Assembly: GCA_035517655.1 (NCBI GenBank)
Contig: DATIYJ010000067.1
Coordinates: 1-41,510, forward strand
Direction: 5' to 3'
From: Nitrospiria bacterium
GTDB lineage: Bacteria > Nitrospirota > Nitrospiria > JACQBZ01
DNA: 41,510 nucleotides
The notes below the pieces were generated by a model, which was not told where the DNA came from, searched no databases, and saw nothing but the letters and a program-made list of their open reading frames with translations. The position numbers and the translations under genes are program-made. This document shows positions 1-31,354 of the stretch, one piece after another (position 1 is the first letter of the stretch; each line of letters opens with the position of its first letter).

Positions 1-470
1 AAAATAAATTCCCGTTCGGCGATGAGTACTTTGACCTTGCATGGGCGGACTATGTGATGGAGCACGTTGAAGATCCAAAGGGTTTTCTAAAAGAAGTGAA
101 CCGTGTTCTAAAGCCGGGTGCATCTTTCTTCTTTCGGACGCCGAATAAATACCATTACGTTTCGTTCGTCGGCCGAATGACGCCGCATTGGTTTCATGAG
201 CGCGTGGCCAACCGCGCGCGTGGATTGGCTTCCGATGCGCATGAACCGTATCCGACGTACTATCGTCTTAACAGCGGGAAACAGATATCGGACGGCGCGC
301 GCTCCGCGGGCTTCAGACTTGTCGAGATGAAGTTTGTCGAGGCCGAGCCGAGTTATCTGGTGTTTAATCCGGGCGCGTTCCGGATCGGTGTTGCGTATGA
401 AAGGATTGTAAATCGATATGACGGCTTGCAGGGTTTAAGGTCAAATATCTTCGGACGCTTTGAAAAATGA
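1..470 (+). CDS. Class I SAM-dependent methyltransferase, C-terminal part (5' end outside window)
   Basis: The reading frame is open from base 3, so the gene starts upstream of the window. The visible part opens with a segment reading FDLAWADYVMEHVEDP, which is the post-motif-II region of type-11/UbiE-like methyltransferases (acidic residue, then EH-x-DP). It continues with FLKEVNRVLKPGASFFFRTPN, the usual 'leader of the final strands' of that fold. The SAM-binding GxGxG loop would lie upstream and is not seen. The gene overlaps the PssD-like gene by 4 bases (ATGA), and its neighbours make surface polysaccharide, so it probably methylates a sugar or lipid-linked glycan. The substrate is unknown. 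Confidence 0.85.
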   Translation, partial: NKFPFGDEYFDLAWADYVMEHVEDPKGFLKEVNRVLKPGASFFFRTPNKYHYVSFVGRMTPHWFHERVANRARGLASDAHEPYPTYYRLNSGKQISDGARSAGFRLVEMKFVEAEPSYLVFNPGAFRIGVAYERIVNRYDGLQGLRSNIFGRFEK

Positions 471-931
471 GGAGCACAAATACTAAGTCGAATAAAATCT
501 GCATCGTCTCCTCATGTGGTGGTCATTTGACGGAAGTGCGGGCGCTCAAGCCGGTGTATGAGCGCTATGAGCATTTCTATGTGCTGAACGACCGTGTATT
601 GCTTCCGAAGGACATGGAGGGCAAAACATATTTCATCCGCCATTCGGAACGGGACTGGGGGTTATTGGTGAATTTATGGGAGGCCTGGCGGATTTTGAGG
701 AAGGAACGACCCGGTTTGATCTTAAGCGCCGGGGCCGGTCCTGCGGTTCCTTTTGCCATTTCCGGCAATATAATGGGGGTTGCATCATTATATATAGAGA
801 CCTTTGCAAGGGTGTCCAAACCCTCCCTGACGGGCCGGATCATGTACTATCTTGCGGCCCGCTTCTTCTACCAATGGAAGCCGCTCGAGCGCTACTTTCC
901 GAAGGCGACGTACGGAGGGCTTCTGCCGTGA
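467..931 (+). CDS. PssD/Alg14-like glycosyltransferase membrane-anchor subunit
   Basis: This 154-residue protein resembles the Alg14/PssD/EpsE family, the subunit that anchors and activates a separate catalytic subunit of a two-part GT28-type glycosyltransferase. The N-terminal ICIVSSCGGHLTEVRAL segment (residues about 11-27) is the family's SxGGH signature. ILSAGAGPAVPFAISG (about 85-100) and IETFARVSKPSLTGRI (about 110-125) are the other conserved blocks. The next gene, overlapping by GTGA at 928-931, is the matching Alg13/PssE-like half, which supports the assignment strongly. Together they would add a sugar to an undecaprenyl-linked intermediate at the inner face of the cytoplasmic membrane. 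The ATG at 467 has no clear ribosome-binding site and probably relies on coupling to the upstream gene. Confidence 0.88.
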   Translation: MRSTNTKSNKICIVSSCGGHLTEVRALKPVYERYEHFYVLNDRVLLPKDMEGKTYFIRHSERDWGLLVNLWEAWRILRKERPGLILSAGAGPAVPFAISGNIMGVASLYIETFARVSKPSLTGRIMYYLAARFFYQWKPLERYFPKATYGGLLP

Positions 932-1470
932 TCTTCGTGACGGTCGGAAACGCGACGCAGGGATTCCGGCGTCTCCTGGACGCGGTCGATCGCATGGCGG
1001 GAGATGGCGCATTCGGGAAGGAGACCGTCTTCATTCAGTCCGGAAACAATCCGGGCTTTCGTCCCTCCCACTGCAAGCACGAAGCCTTCCTCAGCATGGA
1101 TGCGTTTGAAACCAAAATCCATGAAGCCGATCTGATCATCTCCCACACCGGGGCGGGGACGCTGTGGCATGCGCTCCGGGCCGGGAAAATCCCGGTGGTC
1201 ATGCCCCGTCAAAAAAAATACGGCGAGGTTGTGGACGATCATCAGCTTGAAATCGTGAAGGCCCTGGCGGAGGAAGGGCGCGTCGTCCCGGCATATGAAC
1301 CGGAGGATTTGACGAGAGCGATTGAGGAGGCGATGAAGCGTCAGAGGTTGGAGGATGGAGGTTGGAGGCGGAATGAAGAGAAAGGAAAGTCGGAGGGCGA
1401 AGGCAGAAGACCGCAGAGTCCGATGCTGAAGTTGATAGAGCAGGCGATTGAGGAGTTAGTGAAGCGTTAG
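928..1470 (+). CDS. PssE/Alg13-like glycosyltransferase catalytic subunit
   Basis: The protein is 180 residues from GTG 928. That start is chosen because the protein then begins VIFVTVGNATQGFRRLLDA, the typical first strand of the Alg13/PssE (GT28 C-terminal) family, and because GGAGGG lies at 914-919. An earlier in-frame start at 676 would run antiparallel to family length and overlap pssD heavily. ADLIISHTGAGTLWHALR (about residues 68-85) and IPVVMPRQKKYGEVVDDHQ are the donor-binding loop of the family. The C-terminal stretch from about 1343 to 1425 encodes an arginine, glutamate and glycine-rich insertion made of the purine-rich repeat found elsewhere in this cluster. After it a normal helix resumes (LKLIEQAIEELVKR). 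Confidence 0.87.
   Translation: MIFVTVGNATQGFRRLLDAVDRMAGDGAFGKETVFIQSGNNPGFRPSHCKHEAFLSMDAFETKIHEADLIISHTGAGTLWHALRAGKIPVVMPRQKKYGEVVDDHQLEIVKALAEEGRVVPAYEPEDLTRAIEEAMKRQRLEDGGWRRNEEKGKSEGEGRRPQSPMLKLIEQAIEELVKR
1343..1371 (+). repeat. Purine-rich GGTTGGAGG repeat arm inside the pssE-like gene
   Basis: The segment is built from units of GAGGTTGGAGG and GGATGGAGGTTGGAGG, the same units that make up the palindromes at 3022, 5282 and 8139. It is read in frame in the glycosyltransferase and adds a low-complexity Arg/Glu/Gly stretch. No pyrimidine-rich partner arm lies inside the same gene. The closest complementary arm is at 1811-1844, beyond the four-helix-bundle gene. Confidence 0.7.
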
Positions 1471-1530
1471 AGGTCGGAGGGGGGAGGCGGGTGATGGAGG
1501 TCTGAGGCTAAAGGTTGGAGGGGAAGGAAG
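1471..1530 (+). repeat. Left purine-rich arm flanking the four-helix-bundle gene
   Basis: This 60-base run of AGGTCGGAGG, GGAGGCGG, TGATGGAGGTCTGAGGC and AGGTTGGAGG units ends just before ATG 1534. It supplies that gene's ribosome-binding sequence (GGAAGGAAGG at 1521-1530). Its complement, at lower fidelity, is the CCTCCAACC-rich arm at 1811-1844, so the two arms form an imperfect inverted repeat around the gene. Confidence 0.75.
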
Positions 1531-1533
1531 GAC

Positions 1534-1848
1534 ATGAACTCGTTTATTTTCCCGTTTGAAAAACTGGACGTCCGGCGGATGGCGGTTGATCATGCTGACA
1601 GGGTTTTTTCGTTAATAGAGCGGCTTCCTGCCGATAGACATCTGCGATTGGTTTCTCAATTGGAAGGGGCCGTGACATCCATATCGCAAAATATTGCCAG
1701 AAGAAGAAAATTGTTTCATGAAGAAGATTGCAAAGAGTTGAGAGGGCGTTGTGAAATGATTGATGGGAAGATCAACGGGCTCAGAAATTCTTTGCGAGGA
1801 GTTTCCAACGTAAGGCCTCCAACCTCCAACCTCGGACCTCCAACATGA
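1534..1848 (+). pseudogene. Degenerate four-helix-bundle (23S rRNA intervening-sequence type) protein
   Basis: The 104-residue product begins FPFEKLDVRRMAVDHADRV and continues with LVSQLEGAVTSISQNIA, the first two helices of the TIGR02436/S23 four-helix-bundle family (typical wording FEKLxVWQxA and QLRRAAxSIxxNIAEG). It then jumps to DCKELRGRCEMIDGKINGL, which looks like the last helix. About 30 residues that normally lie between (third helix) are missing, so I read it as an internally deleted copy. The last 17 residues are translated from the flanking pyrimidine-rich repeat arm, and the stop codon overlaps the carbamoyltransferase ATG (ATGA 1845-1848). Family members occur inside 23S rRNA introns and near repeats; their molecular role is poorly known. 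It may still be expressed. Confidence 0.72.
1811..1844 (+). repeat. Right pyrimidine-rich arm flanking the four-helix-bundle gene
   Basis: The arm reads as CCTCCAACC units (reverse complement GGTTGGAGG) and ends one base before ATG 1845 of the carbamoyltransferase. It is the inverse partner of the purine-rich arms upstream of the four-helix-bundle gene. Because it ends in CTCCAAC it provides no ribosome-binding site, so the carbamoyltransferase probably depends on translational coupling. Confidence 0.75.
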
Positions 1849-3686
1849 TTATTCTCGGCATCAACGCCTATCACGCCGACGCCGCCGCGGCGATCGTCGT
1901 GGACGGCAAGCTCGTCGCGGCCGCGGAGGAGGAGCGCTTCCGGCGGATCAAGCACTGGGCCGGGCATCCATCGGAGGCGATCCGCTATTGCCTGTCCGAG
2001 GCCGGCGTCACGATCCATGACGTGGACCATGTCGCGGTCTCGCGCGATCCGAAGGCGCATTTCTTTCGGAAGGCCCTCTTCGCGCTGGGCCACCGGCCGA
2101 AATGGGCCTATCTCGCGGACCGGATGAAAAATCGGTCGCGGGTGAAAGACGTCAAAGGGGTCTTGAGTGAGGCGTTAGGGGTGAAGGGTGAAGAGGGATT
2201 AGGGGATAAAGGGATAGGGATTAGGGCGAAGGTTCATTATATCGAACACCACCGCGCGCACATGGCGAGCGGCTTCCTGGTCTCGCCCTTCGACCGGGCC
2301 GCGGTGATTTCGATCGACGCCCTGGGGGACTATACCAGCGCGATGTGGGGGCTGGGGGAAGGCGGGAGATTGGAGGTCGGAGGCCAAATCTTATTCCCGC
2401 ATTCGCTCGGATTTTTCTACACCGCGGCGACGCAGTATCTGGGTTTTCCAAACTACGGCGACGAGTACAAGGTGATGGGCCTCGCGGCCTTCGGCGAGCC
2501 GGAGTTCGTGGATGCCCTCCGCAAAATCATCCGGCTTAAAAAAGACGGGACCTTCGAGCTTGACCTTGGCTACTTTCGCCATCCATCCGAAGGCGTTTCG
2601 ATGACCTGGGACGGCGGTTCGCCGGCGGTCGGGCCGCTCTATTCGGACCGCTGGGAGTGCCTGCTCGGCCCGGCGCGGAAGCCGGACGAGGCGATCACGA
2701 AGCGGCACGAGAACATCGCGTCCTCCCTGCAGGCCGTCTTCGAGGAGGTTTATTTCACCCTCCTCAACAAACTCCATGAAGTCCATAAGCTCCGGACGCT
2801 CTGTCTGTCCGGCGGCTGCGCGATGAACAGCGTCGCGAACGGGAAGATCACCGACCGGACGCCGTTTGAGAAAATCTACGTCCCGCCCGCCCCCGGGGAT
2901 GCCGGCACCGCGATCGGCGCGGCCTTTTATCTGTACCACCGGCTCTCGGACCGGCCGCGCTCCTTCGTGATGGACCACGCGTTTTGGGGGCCGTCTTTCG
3001 ACGGCGAAAGCTTACGAAGAGCGTTGGAGGCGGAAGCTTGGAGGTCGGAGAAGGAAGCGACGCCGGTCAAGTCCTTGCCTCAAGCCTCAAACCTCAAACC
3101 TACGGCGAGCAGGGTCGAAATTCCCGACGAGGACGAGCTTTGCCGAAGGACGGCGCAAGCGATCGCGGACGGGAAGGTCGTCGGATGGTTTCAGGGCCGC
3201 ATGGAGTGGGGCCCGAGGGCGCTGGGCCATCGAAGCATAGTGGCCGACCCGCGCCGCGCCGATATGAAGGACGTGTTAAACGCGCGGATCAAGCGGCGCG
3301 AGCCCTTCCGTCCCTTCGCGCCGTCGATCCTGCTCGAAGCCGTCGGCGACTGGTTCGAGAAGAGCGAGCCCGATCCCTTCATGCTGAAGGTCTTCCCGGT
3401 CAAAAAAGAGAAGCGCTCCCTCATCCCGGCCGTGACGCACGCGGACGGGACCGGCCGGCTCCAGACGGTGGACCGCGCGGCCGATCCGCGTTATTGGAAG
3501 CTGATCCGGGCCTTCGCAAGCCTCACCGGCGTGCCGCTCGTGCTGAACACCTCCTTCAACGAAAACGAGCCGATCGTCCGCGGCCCCTCGGAAGCGGTGG
3601 ATTGTTTCTTGAGGACGAAGATGGACGTTTTGGTCATGGGGAATTTTCTTGTAGAGAAGGTTGGAGGGAAGGAACCTCAAACATAA
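1845..3686 (+). CDS. NodU/CmcH-family O-carbamoyltransferase
   Basis: The 613-residue protein belongs to the carbamoyltransferase family that moves a carbamoyl group from carbamoyl phosphate, via carbamoyl-AMP, onto a hydroxyl of a sugar or antibiotic. The N-terminal ASKHA/Kae1-like domain shows LGINAYHADAAAAIVVDG at the start, the metal-binding HHRAH at about residues 136-140, LSGGCAMNSVANGK near 322 and PPAPGDAGTAIGAA near 345. The C-terminal YrdC-like domain shows GRMEWGPRALGHRSIVADP near 452 and VLNTSFNENEPIVRGP near 565. All key blocks are present, so it is probably active despite purine-rich insertions at 2164-2229, 2361-2385 and 3022-3102. The neighbours suggest that it decorates a surface glycan. 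Confidence 0.93.
   Translation: MIILGINAYHADAAAAIVVDGKLVAAAEEERFRRIKHWAGHPSEAIRYCLSEAGVTIHDVDHVAVSRDPKAHFFRKALFALGHRPKWAYLADRMKNRSRVKDVKGVLSEALGVKGEEGLGDKGIGIRAKVHYIEHHRAHMASGFLVSPFDRAAVISIDALGDYTSAMWGLGEGGRLEVGGQILFPHSLGFFYTAATQYLGFPNYGDEYKVMGLAAFGEPEFVDALRKIIRLKKDGTFELDLGYFRHPSEGVSMTWDGGSPAVGPLYSDRWECLLGPARKPDEAITKRHENIASSLQAVFEEVYFTLLNKLHEVHKLRTLCLSGGCAMNSVANGKITDRTPFEKIYVPPAPGDAGTAIGAAFYLYHRLSDRPRSFVMDHAFWGPSFDGESLRRALEAEAWRSEKEATPVKSLPQASNLKPTASRVEIPDEDELCRRTAQAIADGKVVGWFQGRMEWGPRALGHRSIVADPRRADMKDVLNARIKRREPFRPFAPSILLEAVGDWFEKSEPDPFMLKVFPVKKEKRSLIPAVTHADGTGRLQTVDRAADPRYWKLIRAFASLTGVPLVLNTSFNENEPIVRGPSEAVDCFLRTKMDVLVMGNFLVEKVGGKEPQT
2164..2229 (+). repeat. G-rich TTAGGG/GTGAAGGG low-complexity insertion in the carbamoyltransferase
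   Basis: The stretch consists of GTTAGGGGTGAAGGGTGAAGAGG-like units followed by GGGATAAAGGGATAGGGATTAGGG. It is translated as a Gly/Lys/Glu-rich loop just before the conserved HHRAH metal-binding block. The units differ from the GGTTGGAGG palindromes but share the purine strand bias, and no complementary arm follows. Confidence 0.6.
2361..2385 (+). repeat. Short purine-rich repeat remnant in the carbamoyltransferase
   Basis: The remnant reads GGCGGGAGATTGGAGGTCGG followed by AGGCC. It is an isolated purine arm of the GGTTGGAGG family, read in frame between the active-site block and the next conserved block (FPHSLGFFYTAATQYLGF). Confidence 0.6.
3022..3102 (+). repeat. Purine-rich palindrome inserted in frame in the carbamoyltransferase
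   Basis: The left arm 3022-3058 has GTTGGAGG, CTTGGAGGTCGGAG units. The right arm 3071-3102 has CCTTGCCTCAAGCCTC and AAACCTCAAACC units, and its reverse complement reads GGTTTGAGGTTTGAGGCTTG. The arms can fold back over a loop of about 12 bases. The insertion lies in the linker between the two enzyme domains and adds about 27 residues without breaking the frame. Confidence 0.8.
3659..3682 (+). repeat. Mini-palindrome at the 3' end of the carbamoyltransferase gene
   Basis: The bases GGTTGGAGGGAAGGAACC followed by TCAAAC form a shortened member of the same family (GGTT...AACC). It encodes the last residues before the stop codon, VGGKEPQT. Confidence 0.55.
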
Positions 3687-3689
3687 CCG

Positions 3690-5597
3690 ATGAAAATCCT
3701 TTTCATCAATCGTTATTACTCTCCCGACCCGTCGGGGACGAGCCGGATGCTGACGGACCTCGCGACCGATCTCGCGCGCTCAGGCCATCGCGTCACGGTG
3801 ATCGCGAGCGACGCCGACACGCGGGACGCGGCCGTCCGCTATCCCGGAAAGGAAACGCTTGACGGCGTCCGGGTCCGTCGCGTCCGGGCCCTGCGGTTCG
3901 ACCGCCGCGCCGTCCGGCGCTGGGTCTTGAACAGTTTGTCGTTTTATCCGCGGGTTCTGATCCGCGCCCTCCGGCTTCCGAGGCAGGACGCCGTCGTTTT
4001 CCTGAGCGATCCCCCGCTGGTTTTCGCGCTGGGCCCGGTGCTGCGCCGTCTGAAAGGCTCGCCCTACGTCTGCTGGTGCCAGGACGTCTATCCGGAGGTT
4101 GCGATCCGTCTGGGGATTCTCCGGGAGCGTTCCGCGTTCGCGTGGTTTTTGAAGATCCTTTCCGGCCGGGCCCTCCGGTCGTCCGACGGCGTGATCGCGG
4201 TCGGCGAGCGCATGTCCGATCTTATTCGAAGCCGCGGCGTCGATCCCGAAAGGATCCGCGTGCGGCCCAACTGGGCCGACGGGGAGCGCGTCCGTCCGGT
4301 CCTCCCCGAGGCCAACCGCTTCTTGGAGAAGCACGGCCTCCGGGACAAATTCATTATTCTTTATTCCGGCAACATGGGATTGGCCCATCCCTTCGAGACC
4401 GTCTTGGGCGCGGCCGCGCGCTTGAAAGCCTACGACGACATCGTCTTTGTCTTCATCGGCGGCGGAAAACAACGGCGGATGCTTGAGCAGCGCTCGTCGG
4501 GGCGGACGAACATCGTCCTCATGCCCTTTCAGGATGAAGCGGACCTCGCCCAAAGCCTTTGCGCGGGCGATCTCCATCTGGTGACGCTCCGGCCGGGCTT
4601 GGAGGGGGCGATCGTCCCGAGCAAGCTCTACGGCGCGCTCGCGGCCGGACGGCCCGTCCTTTATATCGGCCCCGCCGGGAGCGAGGCGGCCCGGGTCGTC
4701 GAGGAGGCGGAATGCGGCTATGTGATCGCGGAGGGGGACGTCGACGCTTTTTGCCGCGCAGTGCTGGATCTCTACCGTCAGCCGGAGCGGCGGCGGCTTT
4801 TCGGCGAGCGGGCGCGGAAAGTTTTCGAGTCGCGCTTCGACCGGCCGGACGCCACGCGGGGCTTCGGACTCGCGCTGGTCGGCCTGATCGAAAACGTCCG
4901 CCCGGCCTCGCGTCTGAAACGGGCCCTGGACCTCGGCCTGTCCGGCGTCGGACTTGTCGCCTCGGCGCCGCTCTGGGCGGTGATTGCATGTCTTGTGAAG
5001 GGACAGGACGGCGGGCCGGTCTTCCACCCCCAGGAGCGGGTCGGCCGCGACGGGCGGATCTTTACGGCGCTCAAGTTCCGCTCGATGATCCCCGACGCCG
5101 AGGCCGGAAGCGGCCCGGTCCAGGCGGCCTATAACGATCCGAGGGTGACGCGCGTCGGCCGTGTCCTTCGGGCCACCGCGATGGACGAGCTGCCGCAGCT
5201 CTGGAACATCTTCCGCGGGGACATGAGCTTCGTCGGGCCGAGGGCCTTGAGGCCGCTTGAAATCGAGGCGGGAGGGAAAACGTTGGAGGATCGAGGTTTG
5301 AGGTTGGAGGCAACAGACAAAAGAGGCGATACGCTTTTGCCTCGAGCCTCTAACCTCCGGCCTCAAGCCGGCATGTTTAATGATATTCCCAATTTTCACC
5401 TGCGGCATCGCGTCCGGCCGGGGCTGACGGGGCCGGCGCAGGTCTACGCGCCGAGGAACGCGACGCGCCGGCAAAAGCTGCGCTACGACCTTCTCTATGT
5501 CCGGTCCCGCTCGTTCGGACTCGATCTTAAACTCATCGCGCTCTCGTTCTTAATCACTTTCCGGGGCCGGTGGGAGGCGAAGGGGAAAAAAGTTTGA
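3690..5597 (+). CDS. Fusion of GT4 glycosyltransferase and initiating polyprenyl-phosphate sugar transferase
   Basis: This 635-residue protein has two complete modules. Residues 1 to about 405 are a WbuB-like GT4 glycosyltransferase, shown by [20 protein letters not shown] at the start, [10 protein letters not shown] near 130, [12 protein letters not shown] near 228 and the donor-binding [15 protein letters not shown] near 310. Residues about 407-635 are a WcaJ/PglC-like phosphoglycosyltransferase, shown by [17 protein letters not shown], the catalytic-pair motif [21 protein letters not shown] near 495, then [14 protein letters not shown]. These functions are usually encoded by separate adjacent genes. 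The initiating half would transfer a sugar phosphate to undecaprenyl phosphate and the GT4 half would add the next sugar. A purine-rich palindrome at 5269-5372 adds about 34 residues between FVGPRALRP and the [10 protein letters not shown] block. Confidence 0.92.
5269..5372 (+). repeat. Purine-rich palindrome inserted in frame in the sugar transferase
   Basis: The left arm 5282-5312 (GTTGGAGGATCGAGG, TTTGAGGTTGGAGGCAA) pairs imperfectly with the right arm 5335-5369 (TTGCCTCGAGCCTCTAACC, then CTCCGGCCTCAAGCC). The arms are separated by about 22 bases. In related sugar transferases the flanking blocks are only about 15-20 residues apart, so the palindrome is an added segment that keeps the frame open. 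Confidence 0.82.
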
Positions 5598-5604
5598 GGC
5601 CGTT

Positions 5605-5719
5605 GCTCGATGCACAAAAGCGGACGCGGCATCCCCGAACATCCGTAAACCGGTACAAGACTCAATCACCCGTGGACGCTTATGGTCGGCGAAAGAATCC
5701 ATCGGCAAGGGTCGGCGGC
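5605..5719 (-). repeat. Long intergenic repeat family, copy 1 (inverted, partial)
   Basis: Read on the minus strand, this segment begins GCCGCCGACCC and continues through GGATTCTTTCGCCGACCATA, AGCGT, GTCTT and TTCGGGGATGCCGC. It matches the first 100 bases or so of the copies at 6958 and 11090. It lies between the glycosyltransferase fusion and the reductase gene, in the opposite orientation to the copy at the reductase's 3' end. Confidence 0.75.
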
Positions 5720-5737
5720 CTGAGCGCCGTCGGCCGC

Positions 5738-5766
5738 TTGACGCCGCACATAGGGGCGGATAAGAT
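5738..5766 (+). promoter_or_regulatory. Sigma-70-type promoter for the reductase gene
   Basis: TTGACG at 5738-5743 and TAAGAT at 5761-5766 are separated by 17 bases. The predicted transcript would start near 5773, 20 bases before ATG 5794. Confidence 0.55.
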
Positions 5767-5793
5767 AGCGGCCCATTGGGTGGAGGAAGCGTG

Positions 5794-6996
5794 ATGCGCG
5801 ACGTCGTCATCGTGGGGGCGGGGCCGGCCGGCTCGTACATGGCCCGGTGCCTGGCCGAGGAGGGGCTGGATGTTCTGCTGCTGGAGGAGCACGCCGAGGC
5901 GGGCGAGGGCGTGATCTGCAGCGGCATCATCGGTCGCGAGGCCTACGAGCGCTTCGATCTTCCGGCCGAGGCGACGGTCGGCGCCCTGCAGCGCGTCCGT
6001 TTTCACTCGCCCTCCGGGAAGGTCGTCGATTACGACGCCGACGGCCCGCTGGCGACGATCGTCAGCCGCAAAAAATTCGACGCGGGGCTGGCCCGGCGGG
6101 CCGTCCGGGCGGGGGCCGAGCTTCGGACCGGAAGCCGGGTGAGGGACGTCCGGGCCGGGCCGGAGGGCGTGCGGCTGGAGTGGCGCCGCGACGGCGAGTC
6201 GCGCGAGCTCCGGGCGCGGCTCTGCGTGCTGGCGACCGGCTTCGGGTCCGGCCTCGTCCGGCGCTGCGGCTTCGGCGGCCCGCGCGAACGCATCCAGGCG
6301 GCGCAGGCGCTGATGCCGTTCCGGGATCAGGGCTCCGCCGGGATCTATCTCGGCTCGCGCTTCGCCCCGAGGGGTTTCGGCTGGTCGGTTCCGATCGGGG
6401 ACGGCCTCGCCCGCATCGGCGTCGTCACGGACCGGCAGGCCCCGGGCTATCTCCGGCGGATCCTGAACCGGCCCGACGTCCGCCCGCACCGGGCGGCGGC
6501 GGGCGAACCCGCGGCGATCGAGGCCTGCCCCATTCCGGTCGGGACGCTCGATGAAACGGTCGCGGACCGGCTGATGGTCGTCGGCGAGGCGGCCGGCCAG
6601 GTGAAGACGACGACGCAGGGCGGCATCTACTACGGCCTGCTCTGCGCCGAGACGGCGGCCCGTGTCGCGATCGGGGCCTTTCGCGCGGGGGACCTTTCGC
6701 GCGCGGCGCTCGCGCCCTACGACCGTCGATGGCGGGAGCGGCTCGGGGCCGAGCTCCGGCTGGGCCTGCTGTTGCGGGAGTTCTATTCGGAGCTTTCGGA
6801 CCGGCAGGTGGACCGTCTCTTCGACCTCGCGCGGATCGAGGGCGTGCTGCCGATGATCGAGCGGAAGGTCCGCTTCGACTGGCACGGCCCGGTCATCCGC
6901 TCGGTCCTGAACAAGGGTTTTCTCGGCGCGGCCGTCCGGTCGATGCTGGGACTGGCGCCGCCGACCCTCGCCGAAGGATTCATTCGCCGACCATAA
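5794..6996 (+). CDS. Geranylgeranyl-reductase-family FAD-dependent oxidoreductase
   Basis: The 400-residue flavoprotein starts MRDVVIVGAGPAGSYMARCL, a Rossmann GxGxxG FAD-binding motif. A GEGVICSGIIG segment follows near residue 40, typical of the ChlP/GGR family. The second FAD block reads VVGEAAGQVKTTTQGGIYYG near residue 265, again typical of this family. ATG 5794 is chosen because GGAGGA at 5782-5787 gives normal spacing; a TTG at 5776 is in frame but lies before this site. Family members reduce isoprenoid double bonds of geranylgeranyl chains or other prenyl lipids. No chlorophyll genes are nearby, so a prenyl lipid, quinone or polyprenyl carrier is a more likely substrate. The last 12 residues (PPTLAEGFIRRP) and the stop codon come from the repeat copy that starts at 6958. 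Confidence 0.85.
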   Translation: MRDVVIVGAGPAGSYMARCLAEEGLDVLLLEEHAEAGEGVICSGIIGREAYERFDLPAEATVGALQRVRFHSPSGKVVDYDADGPLATIVSRKKFDAGLARRAVRAGAELRTGSRVRDVRAGPEGVRLEWRRDGESRELRARLCVLATGFGSGLVRRCGFGGPRERIQAAQALMPFRDQGSAGIYLGSRFAPRGFGWSVPIGDGLARIGVVTDRQAPGYLRRILNRPDVRPHRAAAGEPAAIEACPIPVGTLDETVADRLMVVGEAAGQVKTTTQGGIYYGLLCAETAARVAIGAFRAGDLSRAALAPYDRRWRERLGAELRLGLLLREFYSELSDRQVDRLFDLARIEGVLPMIERKVRFDWHGPVIRSVLNKGFLGAAVRSMLGLAPPTLAEGFIRRP

Positions 6997-7134
6997 GCGT
7001 CGACAGGAGATCGTGTCTTTTATCGTTTTAGGTATGTCCGGGGACGCGGCCGTTACCGCATCCCCTTTGAGTAGTCGGGAATATCAGCGTGCTCGAGCGC
7101 ATGGTCGGCTCTCTCACCCTCCGGCTTCGGGCCT
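6958..7134 (+). repeat. Long intergenic repeat family, copy 2
   Basis: About 177 bases are shared with 11090-11264. Common landmarks are CCCTCGCCGAAGG, TTCGCCGACCATA, GTGTCTTTT, the hairpin GGGGACGCGG...CCGCATCCCC, AGTCGGG, GAGCGCATGGTC and CTCTCACCCTCCGGCTTCGG. The first 39 bases are coding and supply the end of the reductase gene. The two small hairpins suggest a structured, REP-like element. Confidence 0.8.
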
Positions 7135-7454
7135 CCGCCTGCCACGCCGGCGGTCCCCGCCCTGAGCGCAGAGGCACGCCGGAGCCTCCATAGAAAATCC
7201 ATTTCCAATCCAATCAACGGAAATCAAACGCAAGGTCGTTGAACGATCGGCTATTCAGAAAGGAGTATGATAGCTGCGACTCGTGCGTCAAGCGAAGGGC
7301 GGGGACCGCCGGCAGGGGACGGAATCAGTTGCTTTCGATTTTTCCGTCTATCATAGGGGCTTGCGTCGCCCCCTCCACCCGCCGAGCCGTATGGAGCGAC
7401 TCGACCGGGCTCGTCGAGGTCCTCCCCCTCTCGCTCGCCTTGCTCGCTGTGTAG
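7135..7454. other. Intergenic repeats, no gene recognised
   Basis: The 320 bases between the long repeat and lolD hold no convincing gene. At 7350-7375 there is a TATAGGGGCTTGCGTCGCCCC hairpin element, followed by CGACTCGACCGGGCTCGTCG and CCCTCTCGCTCGCC. Related elements occur at 10993 and 30586. The remainder has no recognised content. Confidence 0.6.
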
Positions 7455-8132
7455 CTATTCTTCCACGATTTTTCCGTCGACCATCCGGACGATGCGGTCG
7501 GCCTGGGCCGAGAGCTTTTCGTTGTGGGTGACGAGGACGAAGGTATGGCCGAGCTGTTTGTTGAGGCCCCGCATCAGCGCGAAGACCTCGTCGGAGGTGT
7601 GGCTGTCGAGGTTGCCGGTCGGCTCGTCGGCCAGGACGAGGCCGGGCTCCAAGATCAGCGCCCGCGCGACCGCGACGCGCTGCTGCTCGCCGCCGGACAG
7701 CTCCCCCGGCCGGTGCGAAAGCCGCCCGCCGAGGCCGACCGCGTCGAGGAGCGCGGCCGCCTCCTTCGCGGCCTGCGTCCGCTTCCGGCCCTGGATCAGG
7801 GCCGGCATCATCGTGTTCTCGAGCGCCGTGAATTCCGGAAGAAGATGATGGAACTGGAAGACGAAGCCGATCCGGCGGTTCCGGAAGGCGGCGAGCTGAT
7901 TGTCGTTGAACGCGAACAGGTTCTCCCCGTCGAACTCGACCGTTCCCGCCGTCGGCCGGTCCAGCCCGCCCAGCAGGTGAAGCAGGGTGCTCTTCCCGAC
8001 GCCCGACGCCCCGACGATGCAGAGCATCTCGCCCCGGGATACCTCCAGGTTGATCCCCTTGAGAATCTCGAGCGGCTGGGGCATGTGGAAGGTCTTGGTG
8101 AGGTTCGTGACTTTGATCATGGATTGTTTCAT
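7455..8132 (-). CDS. lolD: LolD-type lipoprotein-releasing ABC transporter ATPase
   Basis: The protein is 225 residues from ATG 8132. It powers release of outer-membrane-destined lipoproteins from the inner membrane together with LolC/E. Walker A reads GASGVGKST at about residues 41-49, the family-typical [14 protein letters not shown] lies near 87, the signature is [15 protein letters not shown] and Walker B is [13 protein letters not shown]. The [14 protein letters not shown] block is closer to LolD than to MacB or FtsE. lolC lies directly upstream, separated by a purine-rich palindrome. Neither ATG 8132 nor ATG 8120 has a normal ribosome-binding site. A TTG at 8201 inside the repeat does have purine-rich upstream sequence and would add 23 residues. 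The start is therefore uncertain. Confidence 0.9.
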
Positions 8133-8138
8133 GGGTCC

Positions 8139-8219
8139 GGTTGGAGGATTGAGGCCTGAGGTTTGAGGCAGAGACTTGAATGACGTATCGTTCTCCTCCA
8201 ACCTCCAACCTCCAACCTC
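8139..8219 (-). repeat. Purine-rich palindrome between lolC and lolD
   Basis: The plus-strand left arm 8139-8172 reads GGTTGGAGGATTGAGGCCTG and TTTGAGGCAGA. The right arm 8190-8219 is CTCCTCCAACC followed by two more CTCCAACC units. The arms are inverted and separated by about 17 bases. This is the same family as 3022-3102 and 5269-5372. It occupies the site where the lolD ribosome-binding site would be expected. Confidence 0.82.
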
Positions 8220-8222
8220 GCG

Positions 8223-9469
8223 CTACTCATACCTCAGCGCCTCCGACGGGTTCAGCCGCGCGGCCTGCCAGGACGGGTAGAGCGTCGCGACGAAGCTGAT
8301 CGTCACGGCCGAGAGCGAGACGAGCGTCACGTCGAGGGCGCGGATCGTGACCGGAAGGCGGCTGATGTAGTAGATGTCGCTCGGCAGCGTGTAGAAGGCG
8401 TGCAGGAGGTAGCAGACGAAATAGCCCAGCGGGATCCCGATCGCCGTCCCGACCCCGCCGATCACGAGCCCGTCCACCATGAAGATCCGCATCACCTCCC
8501 GCCGCGTCGCGCCCATGGCCTTGAGGATCGCGATCTCGCGGCTCTTCTCGACCACGATCATCGTGAGCGTGCCGACGATGTTGAACGAGGCGACGAGGAT
8601 GATCAGGATCAGGATGACGAACATCATCATCTTTTCGAGCTGGAGGGCCGAGAAGAGGTTCCGGTTCAGCTGCATCCAGTCGCGGGCCCAGTAGGGGAAG
8701 CCCAGCGCGTCCTCGATGCTCCGCGCGATCCGGTCGGCCCGGAAGATGTCGTCCACCTTGACCTCGACGCCCGTCACCGCGTCGCCCAGGTTGAAAAAGT
8801 CCTGGGCCGTCCCGATCGCGATGTAGGCCAGCGACGAGTCGTATTCGTACATGCCCGAGTCGAAGATCCCGACCACCTCGAACTTCCGGATCTTCGGGAT
8901 GATGCCGAGCGGCCCCGGCGTCCCGGTGGGCGAGACGACGTTGATCGAGTCGCCCAGGAAGGTCCCGAGGCGCGCGGCCAGCTCCTTGCCGATGATGATC
9001 CCGGGCGGGACCGGCCGGCCGTCGGGGGTCTTCCCCGCGGGCTTGGCGATGTCCGACAGCGAGCCCTGGACCATGTTCTTCCGGATGTCGGTGACGGTCG
9101 GCTCCAGCGCAGGATCGATCCCGCGCAGGACGACGCCGGAGACGCTGCCGCCGGCGGTCAGCAGGACCTGGTTGTAGATAAAGGGCGTGGCCGCGACGAC
9201 GTGCGGGATCTGTTTGACCCGCTCCAGCACGGCGCGGTAGTCCGTCATTGTTTCGCGCGTGCGGTCGGAGATCACGATGTGCGAATTCGTCCCGAGGATC
9301 TTGTCCCGGAGGTCCTCCTTGAAGCCGGTCATGACGGCCAGCGTCGCGATCAGCGCGGCCACGCCCAGCGTCACCCCGCCGATCGAGATGAAGGTGTTGA
9401 GCGAGATCGACCGGTTCCGCCGCTTGCCCTTGAGGTAGCGCAGGCCGATGAAAAATTCGTAGGGGGCGT

Positions 9470-9473: not shown

Positions 9474-10990
<1,517 letters not shown>

Positions 10991-10992
10991 GT

Positions 10993-11019
10993 GTTATAGG
11001 GGCTCACGTCGCCCCCTTA
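10993..11019 (+). repeat. GGGGCTCRCGTCGCCCC hairpin element
   Basis: Plus-strand TATAGGGGCTCACGTCGCCC with further C residues forms a GGGGC/GCCCC hairpin. It matches 7350-7375 and 30586-30611 closely. It lies in the lysS leader, about 3 bases upstream of the start codon, and would sit at the end of the lysS 5' untranslated region. Confidence 0.55.
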
Positions 11020-11072: not shown

Positions 11073-11089
11073 CTGGCGCGGCCTCACGG

Positions 11090-11264
11090 CCGCCGGCCCT
11101 CGCCGAAGGGTTCTTTCGCTGACCATATGCGTTAATCGGAGTTCGTGTCTTTTTTCGTTTCAGGTATGACCGGGGACGCAGCCGTTACTGCATCCCCTTC
11201 TGTAGTCGGGTATAACAATGCCCTCAAGCGCATGGTCAGCTCTCTCACCCTCCGGCTTCGGGCC
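11090..11264 (+). repeat. Long intergenic repeat family, copy 3
   Basis: This copy is colinear with 6958-7134 over its full length, with scattered substitutions. It keeps the CGAAGG/TTCG stem, the GGGGACGCAGCCGTTACTGC hairpin and the CTCTCACCCTCCGGCTTCGG tail. It ends 12 bases from the prfB stop codon, so in transcript terms it lies directly downstream of prfB on the antisense side. Confidence 0.8.
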
Positions 11265-16564: not shown

Positions 16565-16623
16565 TTTACGCGACTTCATACGTGTTTGCAACAAATCGAA
16601 GGCGGCGCTCGGGGCCGCCAGTG

Positions 16624-16815
16624 ATAAGATAAGCCGGATCGCGGCTGTGCCGCGAGAGGCGCGGGGCTTGGGGGCATGTGAGGACCTTGTATCTTCTTTG
16701 CCGCAGCGGCCCCCCAATTATAAGATAAGCCGGATCGCGGCTGCGCCGCGAGAGGCGCGGGGTTTGGGGGCATGTGAGGACCTTGTATCTTCTTTGCCGC
16801 AGCGGCCCCCAATTA
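16624..16815 (+). repeat. 96-bp tandem direct repeat, two copies
   Basis: The two units (16624-16719 and 16720-16815) are nearly identical. Each contains ATAAGATAAGCCGGATCGCG, the perfect hairpin CGCGGCTGTGCCGCG (CGCGGCTGCGCCGCG in the second), GGGGGCATGTGAGGACC, TTGTATCTTC and GCAGCGGCCCCC. A partial unit end precedes the first copy (GGGGCCGCCAGTGATAAG). Both strands are open and encode repetitive peptides, but nothing suggests a real protein. The array sits between the promoter and tRNA-Val. Confidence 0.85.
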
Positions 16816-28795: not shown

Positions 28796-28870
28796 GCCGG
28801 CGTAGCTCAGTGGTAGAGCAGCTGATTCGTAATCAGCAGGTCGGTGGTTCAATCCCACTCGCCGGCTCCA
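28796..28870 (+). tRNA. tRNA-Thr (anticodon CGU), island attachment site
   Basis: The 75-base cloverleaf has acceptor GCCGGCG/CGCCGGC and discriminator T. The D arm is GCTCAGTGGTAGAGC. The anticodon arm is GCTGA-TTCGTAA-TCAGC with CGT at 28828-28830. The T arm has the loop TTCAATC, and the 3' CCA is encoded. Its last 44 bases before the final A are repeated exactly at 30540-30583, which marks it as an integration site. Confidence 0.96.
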
Positions 28871-29395
28871 TTTATTTTCAAGCAGTTGTGAGTCTCCGAT
28901 ATTCTCAAAAGGTATTTTGCTACCACCGTTTGCTACCATGAGTTTTTTCTTGCCTTCCTCAATCAGCTTTTTCTGAGCCTCCGAATAGATCGAATCCAGC
29001 CGGTTGACGTTCGCTTTATTGCCTTTAGGGAGCCATCGGCCGTACAAATTGACCGTCAGCCGGATATCCGAGTGGCCGAGCATATCCGAGACGTAGGCCA
29101 CGGACACCCCTTCGGCCAGGAGTTGAGACGCAAAAGTATGGCGTAGGCTGTAGGGGATGAAGTGGCCCGGCAATTCTGCCCATTTCAGGACACGCTTAAA
29201 CACCTTTCGGACCTTGGATTCGTCCAGATAGCCGCCGACCTCGTTCGTGAACACGATCGAAGGGATCTCGCGGTCCTTCCCCATCGCTTCCAATTCACAT
29301 TTGACACGCCATTCTTTCAGACCCTCCGAAACCATGTCCGACATATCCACCACGCGGGGGCGGTTGGTCTTGGTGGCTTTCACCACCTGACCCAC
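28871..29395 (-). pseudogene. Tyrosine recombinase (phage-type integrase), C-terminal remnant
   Basis: About 175 residues match the catalytic half of a tyrosine recombinase: IPYSLRHTFASQLLAEGV, then VSDMLGHSDIRLTVNLYGRW, giving the box II Arg, the LGH His and the nucleophile Tyr. The preceding KTNRPRVVDMSDM block is also typical. The first catalytic Arg and the whole N-terminal DNA-binding domain are absent; similarity stops near 29395 where a GGGTCAGGTCTTTAC repeat begins. The frame has no stop before tRNA-Thr and runs on through the antisense of the tRNA and rodZ. It lies next to the tRNA end, as expected for an integrase that used this site. Confidence 0.85.
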
Positions 29396-29732
29396 AAATT
29401 GAGAGGGTCAGGTCTTTACTTTTGCATAGAACTTGAAAAATCTTATGCGCTGCTGAGCATGGCCGTTTAAAACACGTCTTCGTGCTCGCCCACATTTGTG
29501 ACAATCATATCCTTTCCCAAAATCCGATAGGTTACGAAACAGATTTCTTTCCGAAATGATTAAATTTCCAAATCCAATAAAATCTTGCTTCGTAGGTGAA
29601 ACAAATATCCATGGGGACCTGATCTTGATCTGAGGCCTACTTCCACAATCCCTTCCCGGTGTCCCTCGCCTTGCGCTCAAGCCGCCTGAAGTCATCCATG
29701 GCTCCATTTAACCCATATTAATAGCCATACTT
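29396..29732. other. Intergenic stretch of the island, no gene recognised
   Basis: This AT-richer region follows the integrase breakpoint. It begins with GAGGGTCAGGTCTTTACTTT (29402-29421), a REP-type sequence. A minus-strand open frame of 99 codons (29408-29707) has no recognisable domain and ends within the repeat. I see no supported gene. Confidence 0.5.
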
Positions 29733-29761
29733 TTGTATTGCTTTTTTCACGCGTCTATGGT
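29733..29761 (+). promoter_or_regulatory. Candidate promoter of the BrnT-BrnA operon
   Basis: TTGTAT at 29733-29738 and TATGGT at 29756-29761 are 17 bases apart. The predicted start lies about 5 bases before ATG 29773, giving almost no leader. Confidence 0.5.
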
Positions 29762-29772
29762 AGGTTATCTCC

Positions 29773-30060
29773 ATGGGGAAAACCCGCTTTGAATGGGATG
29801 AGGAGAAAGACAAGGAAAATCAAGCCAAACACAACGTCTCCTTTTCAGAGGCCCAGCAGGCGTTCCTTGACCCTCAACGTGTCATTGCCGAGGATGTTGA
29901 CCATAGCAAGGAAGAAGAGCGATTTTACTGTCTCGGCCGTGTGGGTAACGGCATCATGACTGTGAGGTTCACCTATCGCGGTGATGTCATCCGCATTTAT
30001 GGTGCGGGATATTGGAGAAAAGGGAGGAAGATATATGAAGAGGAAAATAAAATATTCTGA
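29773..30060 (+). CDS. brnT: BrnT-family toxin
   Basis: The 95-residue protein matches the BrnT (DUF497) family of RNase toxins. KTRFEWDEEKDKENQAKHN at residues 3-21 is the family opening (FEWDxxKxxxNxxKH), VSFSEAQQAFLDPQ follows, and HSKEEERFYCLGRV with RGDVIRIYGAGY make up the core strands. No ribosome-binding site is visible, in keeping with the very short leader predicted. The antitoxin gene overlaps the last 26 bases. It sits in the first segment of the tRNA-Thr island. Confidence 0.9.
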   Translation: MGKTRFEWDEEKDKENQAKHNVSFSEAQQAFLDPQRVIAEDVDHSKEEERFYCLGRVGNGIMTVRFTYRGDVIRIYGAGYWRKGRKIYEEENKIF

Positions 30061-30274
30061 AGAACCGATGGGTAAACTGAGGGTCATCAAGGATTTTCTT
30101 CCTCCGCCGGATCAGTTGGTCTTGAAGGAGGAAAACGTCAAGGTGACGATCTCTTTGAAAAAATCGAGCATTGAGTTTTTCAAGAAACAGGCCAAAAAAC
30201 AGCATACGTCGTATCAAAGAATGATCAGGCAGGTTATCGACTGGTACACGTCACATTATCAAAAGAGCGCCTAA
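30035..30274 (+). CDS. brnA: BrnA-like ribbon-helix-helix antitoxin
   Basis: The 79-residue protein starts at ATG 30035, with GGGAGGAAG just upstream. The C-terminal half reads NVKVTISLKKSSIEFFKKQA, then KKQHTSYQRMIRQVIDWY, a CopG/BrnA-type ribbon-helix-helix. Such antitoxins bind the toxin through the N-terminal part and autoregulate the operon. The overlap with brnT and toxin-first order match known BrnTA pairs. Confidence 0.87.
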   Translation: MKRKIKYSEEPMGKLRVIKDFLPPPDQLVLKEENVKVTISLKKSSIEFFKKQAKKQHTSYQRMIRQVIDWYTSHYQKSA

Positions 30275-30539
30275 CCATTGGACAGGGGAAACGGTCCCCG
30301 GATCGGGCCGTCCCTCGGTCTTAGGTTAGGCCTATTTCCATAAAGGGGTCAAGTCTGCTCTTGACTCATGTTGATGATTCTGCAAATGTCCGCCCATATC
30401 GCGAGACATTTTCGGCTACCTCTTAGCTACCACAGTGCCCATACTTAGGCATACTTGCCCAATTCATGGGTTACTCTACATCCTTCTTTTCTCATCAGGG
30501 AAGTTCCGGAAAGGTATTCTTGGAAATATCGGCGGGCTT
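30275..30539. other. Island spacer with REP-type element before the second tRNA-end copy
   Basis: No gene is recognisable. At 30335-30366 TATTTCCATAAAGGGGTCAA leads to GTCAAGTCTGCTCTTGAC, an inverted pair (GTCAAG/CTTGAC). A related element (ATTTCCATAAA, then GGTCTTGACTCC) lies at 35775-35805, again before a tRNA-end copy. Confidence 0.5.
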
Positions 30540-30583
30540 TTCGTAATCAGCAGGTCGGTGGTTCAATCCCACTCGCCGGCTCC
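30540..30583 (+). repeat. Attachment-site copy: 44-bp exact repeat of tRNA-Thr 3' end
   Basis: The bases TTCGTAATCAGCAGGTCGGT and the following 24 are identical to 28826-28869 of tRNA-Thr, covering the anticodon loop to the discriminator plus CC. Sequence diverges on both sides. This is the expected downstream att site of an element integrated in the tRNA gene. Confidence 0.92.
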
Positions 30584-30797
30584 GTATTATAGGGACTCGC
30601 GTCGCCCCCAAACCAAAGGGACCGGATACCGGATGAAGGATGCTGGCAATGGAAATATTTTTCACTCGCATTGATCATCCCGCATCTTGCATCTGATCCG
30701 CCTTCCCCTCTCGCTCGCCTTCTCGCTGGATAAATAATTTATAGGTCTTGCGTCGCCGGTGACGGGAGAGTATCCATTCAGTATGAACGGGTAAGAT
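30584..30797. repeat. Island spacer with GGGACTCGCGTCGCCCC elements
   Basis: TATAGGGACTCGCGTCGCCC at 30586 and TTTATAGGTCTTGCGTCGCC at 30738 are two more members of the hairpin family at 7350 and 10993. CCCTCTCGCTCGCCTTCTCG at 30708 matches the sequence after the copy at 7350. There is no gene in this stretch. Confidence 0.6.
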
Positions 30798-30826
30798 TTG
30801 ACTCCCGGCGAATAGTCTGTTAATGT
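30798..30826 (+). promoter_or_regulatory. Candidate promoter of the RelE-type toxin-antitoxin operon
   Basis: TTGACT at 30798-30803 and TAATGT at 30821-30826 are 17 bases apart. The predicted start coincides within a base or two with ATG 30834, which has no ribosome-binding site, so the message may be leaderless. Confidence 0.5.
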
Positions 30827-30833
30827 TGAACCT

Positions 30834-31043
30834 ATGAAAACAAATCTTAAACCGCAATTTATCACGGATGAAAAGGGGAGAAAAACCTCGGTCGTGATCG
30901 ACCTTCGGGATTACAAGAACCTCATGGAGTATCTCGAAGACTTGGAAGACGCCAATGATCTGCTGAAGGCCGAGCGGGAAGCGGCGGGGTTTATCCCCTA
31001 TGAGCGTATTCGGAAGAAACTGCGCGCCGGACGTCGGTCTTGA
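30834..31043 (+). CDS. Phd/RelB-type antitoxin
   Basis: The 69-residue protein starts MKTNLKPQFITDEKGRKTSV and continues VVIDLRDYKNLMEYLEDLED, the pattern of Phd/YefM- and RelB-related antitoxins (IxDEKGxxxxVVIxxxDYxxLxExLEDL). Its stop codon overlaps the toxin start (TTGA at 31040-31043), so the pair is translationally coupled. Confidence 0.87.
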   Translation: MKTNLKPQFITDEKGRKTSVVIDLRDYKNLMEYLEDLEDANDLLKAEREAAGFIPYERIRKKLRAGRRS

Positions 31044-31297
31044 CCTATCGCATCCTGGTCGAAAAACGGATCGAAAAGGAGTTCCGGCGCATCCCGGCAC
31101 ATGACCGGCAACGAATCGATCGGGCCATCCTCGAATTAGCCTCCAATCCTCGCCCTCACGGTTGTAAAAAACTGACGGATAAAGAAGGTTATCGTGTTCG
31201 AGTAGGGGACTATCGTGTCCTTTATGCAGTTGATGACCAGAGCAGGACGGTTGTGATTTATCGTGTCAAGATCCGCAATGAGAAGACCTACAAATAA
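31040..31297 (+). CDS. RelE/ParE-family toxin
   Basis: The 85-residue protein begins at TTG 31040. YRILVEKRIEKEFRRIPAHD, RIDRAILELASNPRPHGCKK and YRVRVGDYRVLYAVDDQSRT form the complete RelE mRNA-interferase fold. The GDYRVLY block and final basic VYRVKIRNEKTY are typical. RelE proteins cleave ribosome-bound mRNA. The stop codon at 31295-31297 is also the first three bases of the next tRNA-end copy, so the element ends exactly with this gene. Confidence 0.9.
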   Translation: MTYRILVEKRIEKEFRRIPAHDRQRIDRAILELASNPRPHGCKKLTDKEGYRVRVGDYRVLYAVDDQSRTVVIYRVKIRNEKTYK

Positions 31298-31354
31298 TCA
31301 GCGGGTCGGCGGTTCAATCCGCCTAAGGCGGATCAATCCCACTCGCCGGCTCCA
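31295..31354 (+). repeat. Attachment-site copy 3, tRNA-Thr 3' end interrupted by a palindrome
   Basis: TAATCAGCGGGTCGGCGGTT at 31295 and ATCCCACTCGCCGGCTCCA ending at 31354 correspond to the tRNA-Thr 3' end. Between them 12 bases, GCCTAAGGCGGA, are flanked on both sides by TCAATCC, as if a small palindrome (TCCGCCTAAGGCGGA) had inserted with a 7-base duplication. The following CATTTAT also matches the sequence after tRNA-Thr. Confidence 0.8.

Follow-up and report, generated by a model that had tools for sequence, protein, structure and literature searches.

Inverted arrays of a short repeat unit flank S23 genes and recur without them: a probable family of small palindromic elements

S23 genes (PF05635) are in most cases enclosed by two inverted arrays of a short repeated unit, and gene-less arrays carrying the unit of the resident S23 are dispersed in the same genome. 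We consider the anatomy and its association with S23 to be nearly certain. On genome comparisons, we find it fairly probable that these structures make up a family of small palindromic elements. In its full form, such an element would consist of one S23 gene between two inverted arrays of about four to five units of 7 nt (8 or 9 in some clades); in the derived form, the two arms and a short spacer would remain without the gene, and a genome can hold up to hundreds of such copies. S23 would read its own unit. Taken together, the co-variation of unit and protein, the framing of S23 genes and the dispersed gene-less copies point to a widespread and overlooked small mobile element.

The window analysed, 41,510 nucleotides of a Nitrospiria bacterium, is the entire contig C67 of a 2.65 Mb draft genome (G000, 99% complete). 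Its S23 ORF (1534-1848, + strand, 104 aa) lies in a polysaccharide cluster, between a glycosyltransferase gene (676-1470) and a carbamoyltransferase gene (1845-3686), and not within a 23S rRNA gene, the location of intervening sequences (IVS). A preliminary description of this DNA had proposed that the gene is framed by palindrome arms, and the heptad scan found arrays on both sides of it. On the left, a degenerate GAGGYYN array (1470-1524, + strand) stands directly 5' of the S23 start codon and gives the purine-rich sequence that had been noticed there. On the right, reverse-complement heptads (CCTCCAACC units; 1806-1847, - strand) encode the last residues of S23 and, as was also noticed, run into the start codon of the next gene (ATG at 1845, inside the S23 ORF end ...ACATGA). 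The two arms form an inverted repeat (I17) that matches at 83% over 30 nt. Its arm score was 23, whereas random pairs drawn from the window averaged 14.1, with a 95th percentile of 20; this single locus is therefore only moderately above chance.

An additional GAGGTTG array was detected by heptad scan inside the 3' end of the upstream glycosyltransferase ORF (1344-1371, + strand), and further GAGGYYN arrays occur on contig C55, within an asparagine-synthase-like gene (gene named by eye). A 26-nt repeat (1318-1343 and 1444-1469) was considered as a target duplication and rejected because both copies have counterparts in G001, a species of the same genus (by eye). An Rfam scan of window positions 1-9000 gave no family match.

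The S23 ORF matched PF05635 (1.3e-7) over profile positions 1-47 only, with 32.2 bits; it falls just under the Pfam cut-off of 33.8 because of an internal deletion, and it passed the TIGR02436 cut-off (29.7 vs 24). Its match to a profile built here from relatives was split in two (positions 1-55 and 78-105); about 22-30 residues, corresponding to helix 3, are therefore missing, in agreement with the deletion of about 30 residues deduced in the preliminary description. Intact S23 relatives have a complete four-helix bundle with the invariant residues Q36, S43, N47, E50, S70 and E73. The window copy does not have this complete set: profile positions 56-77 are absent and, with them, S70 and E73 (L001 numbering), and NIAEG is changed to NIARR, so that R replaces E50. 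Owing to these losses the copy cannot be the active, autonomous parent that had been suggested; it is a decayed relic of a GAGGTTG-type element, of which the window arms and the nearby palindromes would be the remains. The same genome has an intact S23 gene, L001 (G000:C64:25816-26130), with arms made of a 9-nt, GTTTTAAAC-like unit that is also present in L038 (77% identical).

Three gene-less palindromes with the heptad of the window S23 lie nearby, as expected from the preliminary description. The first, found by heptad scan, is in frame in the carbamoyltransferase gene (3023-3105) and adds about 20 residues that are absent from the homologues L180-L185; at this site, G001 has an array of another heptad, GAGTGAG. 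The second, also found by heptad scan, is in frame in a sugar-transferase gene (5279-5371), where G001 has an unrelated insert. The third (8121-8226) separates the ATPase gene of an ABC transporter from the gene of its permease. Comparison with G001 further revealed a short GGTTGGAGG...CCTC remnant at the carbamoyltransferase stop (3651-3680), a junction occupied in G001 by a GAGTGAG palindrome.

Other features of the window were noted in passing. Within the carbamoyltransferase gene, a GGGATTA-like heptad run (2190-2225), thus a unit other than GAGGTTG, encodes an in-frame extra GLGDKGIG that is absent in G001; an array at 2359-2393, examined as an insertion, aligns gap-free to homologues and is probably not one. 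A second dispersed repeat of about 95-110 nt, unrelated to the heptads, is present in three copies that are 74-86% alike, one of them inverted (5626-5719, 6957-7067 and 11089-11199), and a 33-nt repeat with a GGGGC...GCCCC hairpin also has three copies (7342-7374, 10985-11017 and 30578-30610). A 96-nt unit is duplicated in tandem, with copies 94% alike, directly 5' of a tRNA-Val (16612-16803). Finally, the region 28796-31353 starts with a tRNA-Thr (28796-28870), followed by a minus-strand integrase-family ORF; with its two further partial copies of the tRNA-Thr 3' end (30540-30583 and 31310-31353), it resembles an island inserted at a tRNA, with attachment-like repeats in tandem, and it carries BrnT-type (29773-30060) and ParE-type (31040-31297) toxin genes.

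A PF05635 search in 58 related genomes gave matches in 32. When the flanks of those S23 genes were read, repeat arrays were found 5' of most start codons and their reverse complement 3' of the stop, with a unit that differs in nearly every copy, including among the 11 copies of genome G053. The general set comprised 80 loci from more than 15 phyla, one archaeon included; having been found with a five-sequence alignment, it is biased towards the RAA[VI]SIP[SA]N subfamily. From these loci, 144 S23 genes were compared with 139 control genes. Inverted arms with a score of at least 16 were present at 119 of the S23 genes (83%) and at 22 of the controls (16%; Fisher p=2e-31). It is this generality that is decisive for the arms, and the enrichment at other S23 genes that the preliminary description called for is thereby established. 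Similarly, 21-nt windows with at least 17/21 lag-7 matches were observed at 82 S23 and 9 control genes (p=3e-21); the period of 7 is specific, as other lags gave only 0-14%.

When the left arm of one element was paired with the right arm of another, the arm score was reached in only 9% of pairs. Arms thus match within a copy and not between copies, which indicates that they belong to the element. They contain mostly four to five units each, the median array being 31 nt long. Six S23 genes on cyanobacterial plasmids likewise lie between heptads, and at about 9% of S23 genes no trace of arms is seen. Over the 602 kb of loci, 139 lag-7 arrays were counted, against 0-28 at other lags; 23 of the inverted pairs enclose an S23 gene and six are gene-less, five of which match the local S23 unit. 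At L032 and L033, a complete AGCTGA palindrome is found on each side of the S23 gene, in a composite-like arrangement.

Orthologous sites with and without an element were then compared. The G001 locus is collinear with the window and lacks the 106-nt palindrome 8121-8226; the flanking genes overlap there at an ATGA junction, which makes this a clean empty site, and at this one site no clear target-site duplication was seen. At the atpD-atpC junction of genus g16, no element is seen in G044 and G046, a palindrome without the gene occupies the site in G036, and S23 elements built on another unit occupy it in G042 and G050 (the G023 junction was unclassifiable and stands outside this comparison). 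Two close MAGs, L098 and L100, carry S23 elements at the same junction, from the stop codon of one gene to the start codon of the next, and the flanks are about 93% alike (by eye); their S23 proteins are 60% identical and their arms are different. The presence or absence at orthologous sites by which transposable elements are recognized is therefore observed here, and we consider it likely that the elements are mobile.

A different view of the arrays is that they are not mobile DNA but operators in mRNA leaders, S23 being a host- or self-serving RNA-binding regulator similar to TRAP, a ring protein that binds spaced RNA triplets. The position of left arms directly 5' of the S23 start codon and of gene-less palindromes between stop and start codons fits this view, as do the ring-like pentamer and the repeated units, and the TAACTGA heptamers that precede start codons in Beggiatoaceae have been proposed to be translational regulators (PMC4679880). 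However, palindromes also lie in frame inside coding genes, the unit changes from each S23 gene to the next within one genome (G053), close relatives have empty sites, and inverted arms are unnecessary for an operator. A regulator of this kind is unlikely in our judgement, and we retain a mobile element as the preferred interpretation.

The unit is 7 nt long in 104 elements, 8 in 13 and 9 in 7, and 84 distinct units were counted among 97 elements. The S23 tree was made with FastTree from about 105 columns; its deep branches are unreliable and the tests lean on near neighbours. The period changes 12 times on this tree; in 2000 shuffles it changed 19.4 times on average and never fewer than 14 times. 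Among 7-nt elements at a tree distance below 0.7, 54% of pairs share at least 6/7 unit letters, versus 1-3% of distant pairs, and near S23 pairs from different phyla share at least 6/7 of the heptad in 28% of cases (permutation p=0.0002). Two same-site pairs (L085/L086 and L032/L033) have near-identical S23 proteins and different heptad calls, which in part reflects a limit of the consensus method. In conclusion, these comparisons show that both the sequence and the length of the unit go with the phylogeny of the S23 protein, and do so across phylum boundaries. The dN/dS values of close S23 pairs were 0.07-0.23 (0 for one pair, which has no non-synonymous change); the protein is therefore kept by purifying selection.

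Unit patterns taken three times (x3) were counted in 16 named genomes with the reversed patterns as control; overlapping matches in long arrays are counted repeatedly, and the figures are thus matches, not elements. GGGANTN x3 gave 443 matches in Xanthomonas cucurbitae, 292 in Dokdonella, 209 in Luteimonas and 81 in Solimonas, each of which has a single S23 gene with arms carrying that unit; where the repeat of a genome is an unrelated one, the count was 0. AGTGGNT x3 gave 16 matches in Thiohalocapsa, whose S23 arms have that unit, and none in the other 15 genomes. The reversed controls were mostly about 0. In Thiohalocapsa (G063, the genome of L137), the reversed control, an AGGGNTN-like heptad, had 127 matches, and a second heptad family is therefore abundant there. 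Among the relatives, AGCTGANN x3 gave 136 matches in S23-bearing and 8 in S23-lacking genomes (reversed control 0), and GAGGYYN x3 gave 43 and 3, respectively, both comparisons being uncorrected for relatedness. A first pattern, GAGGTTNGAGG, with 22 matches vs 14 for its reversed control, is too short to separate clearly.

The unit of gene-less arrays is thus that of the S23 resident in their genome. The idea that palindromes would be rarer where the gene is lacking is borne out by the counts in the relatives, but not in every genome: G030 has 33 AGCTGA matches, yet its three S23 genes have other units, and some S23-lacking genomes contain a few palindromes. Because of genomes such as G030, with many palindromes and no matching S23, the tie between S23 and palindromes is strong and not absolute. 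The more general proposal of a link between this protein family and a dispersing palindrome is supported, and the link is broader than was guessed; what did not hold is that the arms are the same everywhere, as the unit is element-specific and is common only to both arms and the gene-less copies in that genome.

Could the palindromes be a repeat family in their own right, dispersed by some other function of the host, with S23 as a cargo that settles in them? The mismatch in G030 suggests it, as do the gene-less copies, which far outnumber S23 genes, and the two complete palindromes that flank some S23 genes (L032). On the other hand, it would not be expected of a passive cargo that unit sequence and period follow the S23 tree, across phyla too, and the heptad counts are concentrated in S23-bearing genomes. 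In addition, PF01797 (Y1 transposase) was not found in the palindrome-rich G030, G036 and G046, and RAYT transposases are not required. We regard a cargo role of S23 as improbable, and keep to S23 as an integral part of the element.

The arms might act as RNA hairpins, pairing in the transcript so that RNase III excises the S23 message as in the 23S rRNA IVS, and be kept by selection for RNA pairing. In the Coxiella IVS, three tandem heptamers (GACAGAT) lie directly 5' of the S23 start codon and RNase III cuts at the first (PMC4990558). Two window palindromes fold well compared with shuffles (z -5.4, at 5279-5371, and z -2.9), but one folds no better than shuffles (z -0.8), and a hairpin does not need the repeat period itself. 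Furthermore, inter-arm mismatches that would be G.U pairs in S23-sense RNA were no more numerous than the wobble class of the opposite strand (264 vs 315; strict count, 48 vs 60). The role in RNA folding of the repeats advanced in the preliminary description is not supported, and we hold the hairpin explanation to be very improbable. Chance, or ordinary slippage during replication close to a rapidly evolving gene, which could appeal to the over-representation of heptanucleotide repeats among long simple bacterial repeats (PMC4679880, PMC4692102), is hardly credible, being contradicted by both control comparisons with genes of the same loci, by the inverted arrangement and by a genome-specific unit common to distant sites.

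We return to an element that S23 itself would mobilise. An AlphaFold model of an intact S23 (pLDDT 96.6) matches the S23 structures 2gsc and 2rld, which have five chains each as deposited, and S23 is stated to be a homopentamer (PMC4990558). The next structural matches were Avd proteins of diversity-generating retroelements, both by themselves and complexed with the reverse transcriptase (Z 15-16, vs 12.5 for the best unrelated structure row). No catalytic domain is recognised in S23, and the element does not encode a transposase. The evidence inclines us to see S23 as the putative reader of the unit: the protein would recognise its own unit, possibly as the crystal-type pentamer with about one unit per subunit, a match in number that is only suggestive because four units per arm are as common as five. 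The S23 ring may bring the element ends into a dispersal or copying complex that would also serve, in trans, the copies lacking the gene. As S23 has the Avd fold and the element is without a transposase gene, the enzyme that does the copying probably comes from the host or from another element. The 23S rRNA IVS would then be one member of the S23 element family.

Heptanucleotide repeats are reported as the most frequent class of long simple repeat in the genomes of many bacteria, with no accepted cause, and S23 proteins have so far been without an assigned function. If S23 reads heptads, both questions can be tested with one purified protein and one set of oligonucleotides. In that case, a single element family would link the fragmentation of rRNA by intervening sequences with the repeats of cyanobacteria and with peptides inserted in frame, and it would add a new example of a protein that changes in step with a repeat code. 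More tentatively, and with somewhat more doubt than confidence, we suggest bacteria-wide mobile palindromes whose sole gene would encode a non-enzymatic pentameric ring protein, reading a diverging 7-, 8- or 9-nt code and recruiting a borrowed polymerase or reverse transcriptase; this would unite the heptanucleotide excess, the cyanobacterial STRR and the rRNA intervening sequences as one family.

Several known systems share part of these properties. The 23S rRNA IVS of Coxiella and Leptospira likewise has an S23 gene within an inserted element; it has been described only inside rRNA genes, as a special case, whereas the elements reported here are found in operons, inside protein genes and on plasmids, and have gene-less derivatives. 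REP/REPIN sequences with their RAYT resemble them in that a genome has a single copy with the protein gene and numerous palindromes without it, the sequence being element-specific; however, S23 is not a Y1 transposase, and its arms are arrays of a 7-9 nt unit. TRAP offers, as an idea, an oligomeric ring reading a regularly spaced repeat, binding by S23 being putative, and differs from S23 in fold and period.

Units of 7 nt are shared with the heptanucleotide repeats, that is the GGGAATC-type G-quadruplex repeats of Xanthomonas and Nostoc (PMC4692102), the cyanobacterial STRR, TAACTGA of Beggiatoaceae (PMC4679880) and Gmet_H4 of Geobacter metallireducens (PMC2700814). Such elements lie both within and between genes (PMC2700814), and in Xanthomonas they have mostly about four copies of the heptad; a count of about 70 inverted pairs per genome has been given (PMC4692102). 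The difference is that here such units flank S23 genes; a term search of these three papers (PMC2700814, PMC4679880, PMC4692102) found no mention of S23, and no general link between S23 and heptad arms was found in the literature searched, which excluded preprints and most subscription journals. Avd of diversity-generating retroelements has the same fold and provides the nearest non-S23 structures, but its sequence identity with S23 is about 8%, and none of the S23 elements read in this analysis includes a reverse transcriptase. Homing of these retroelements needs a hairpin or cruciform, the stem sequence of which is free (PMC3240598).
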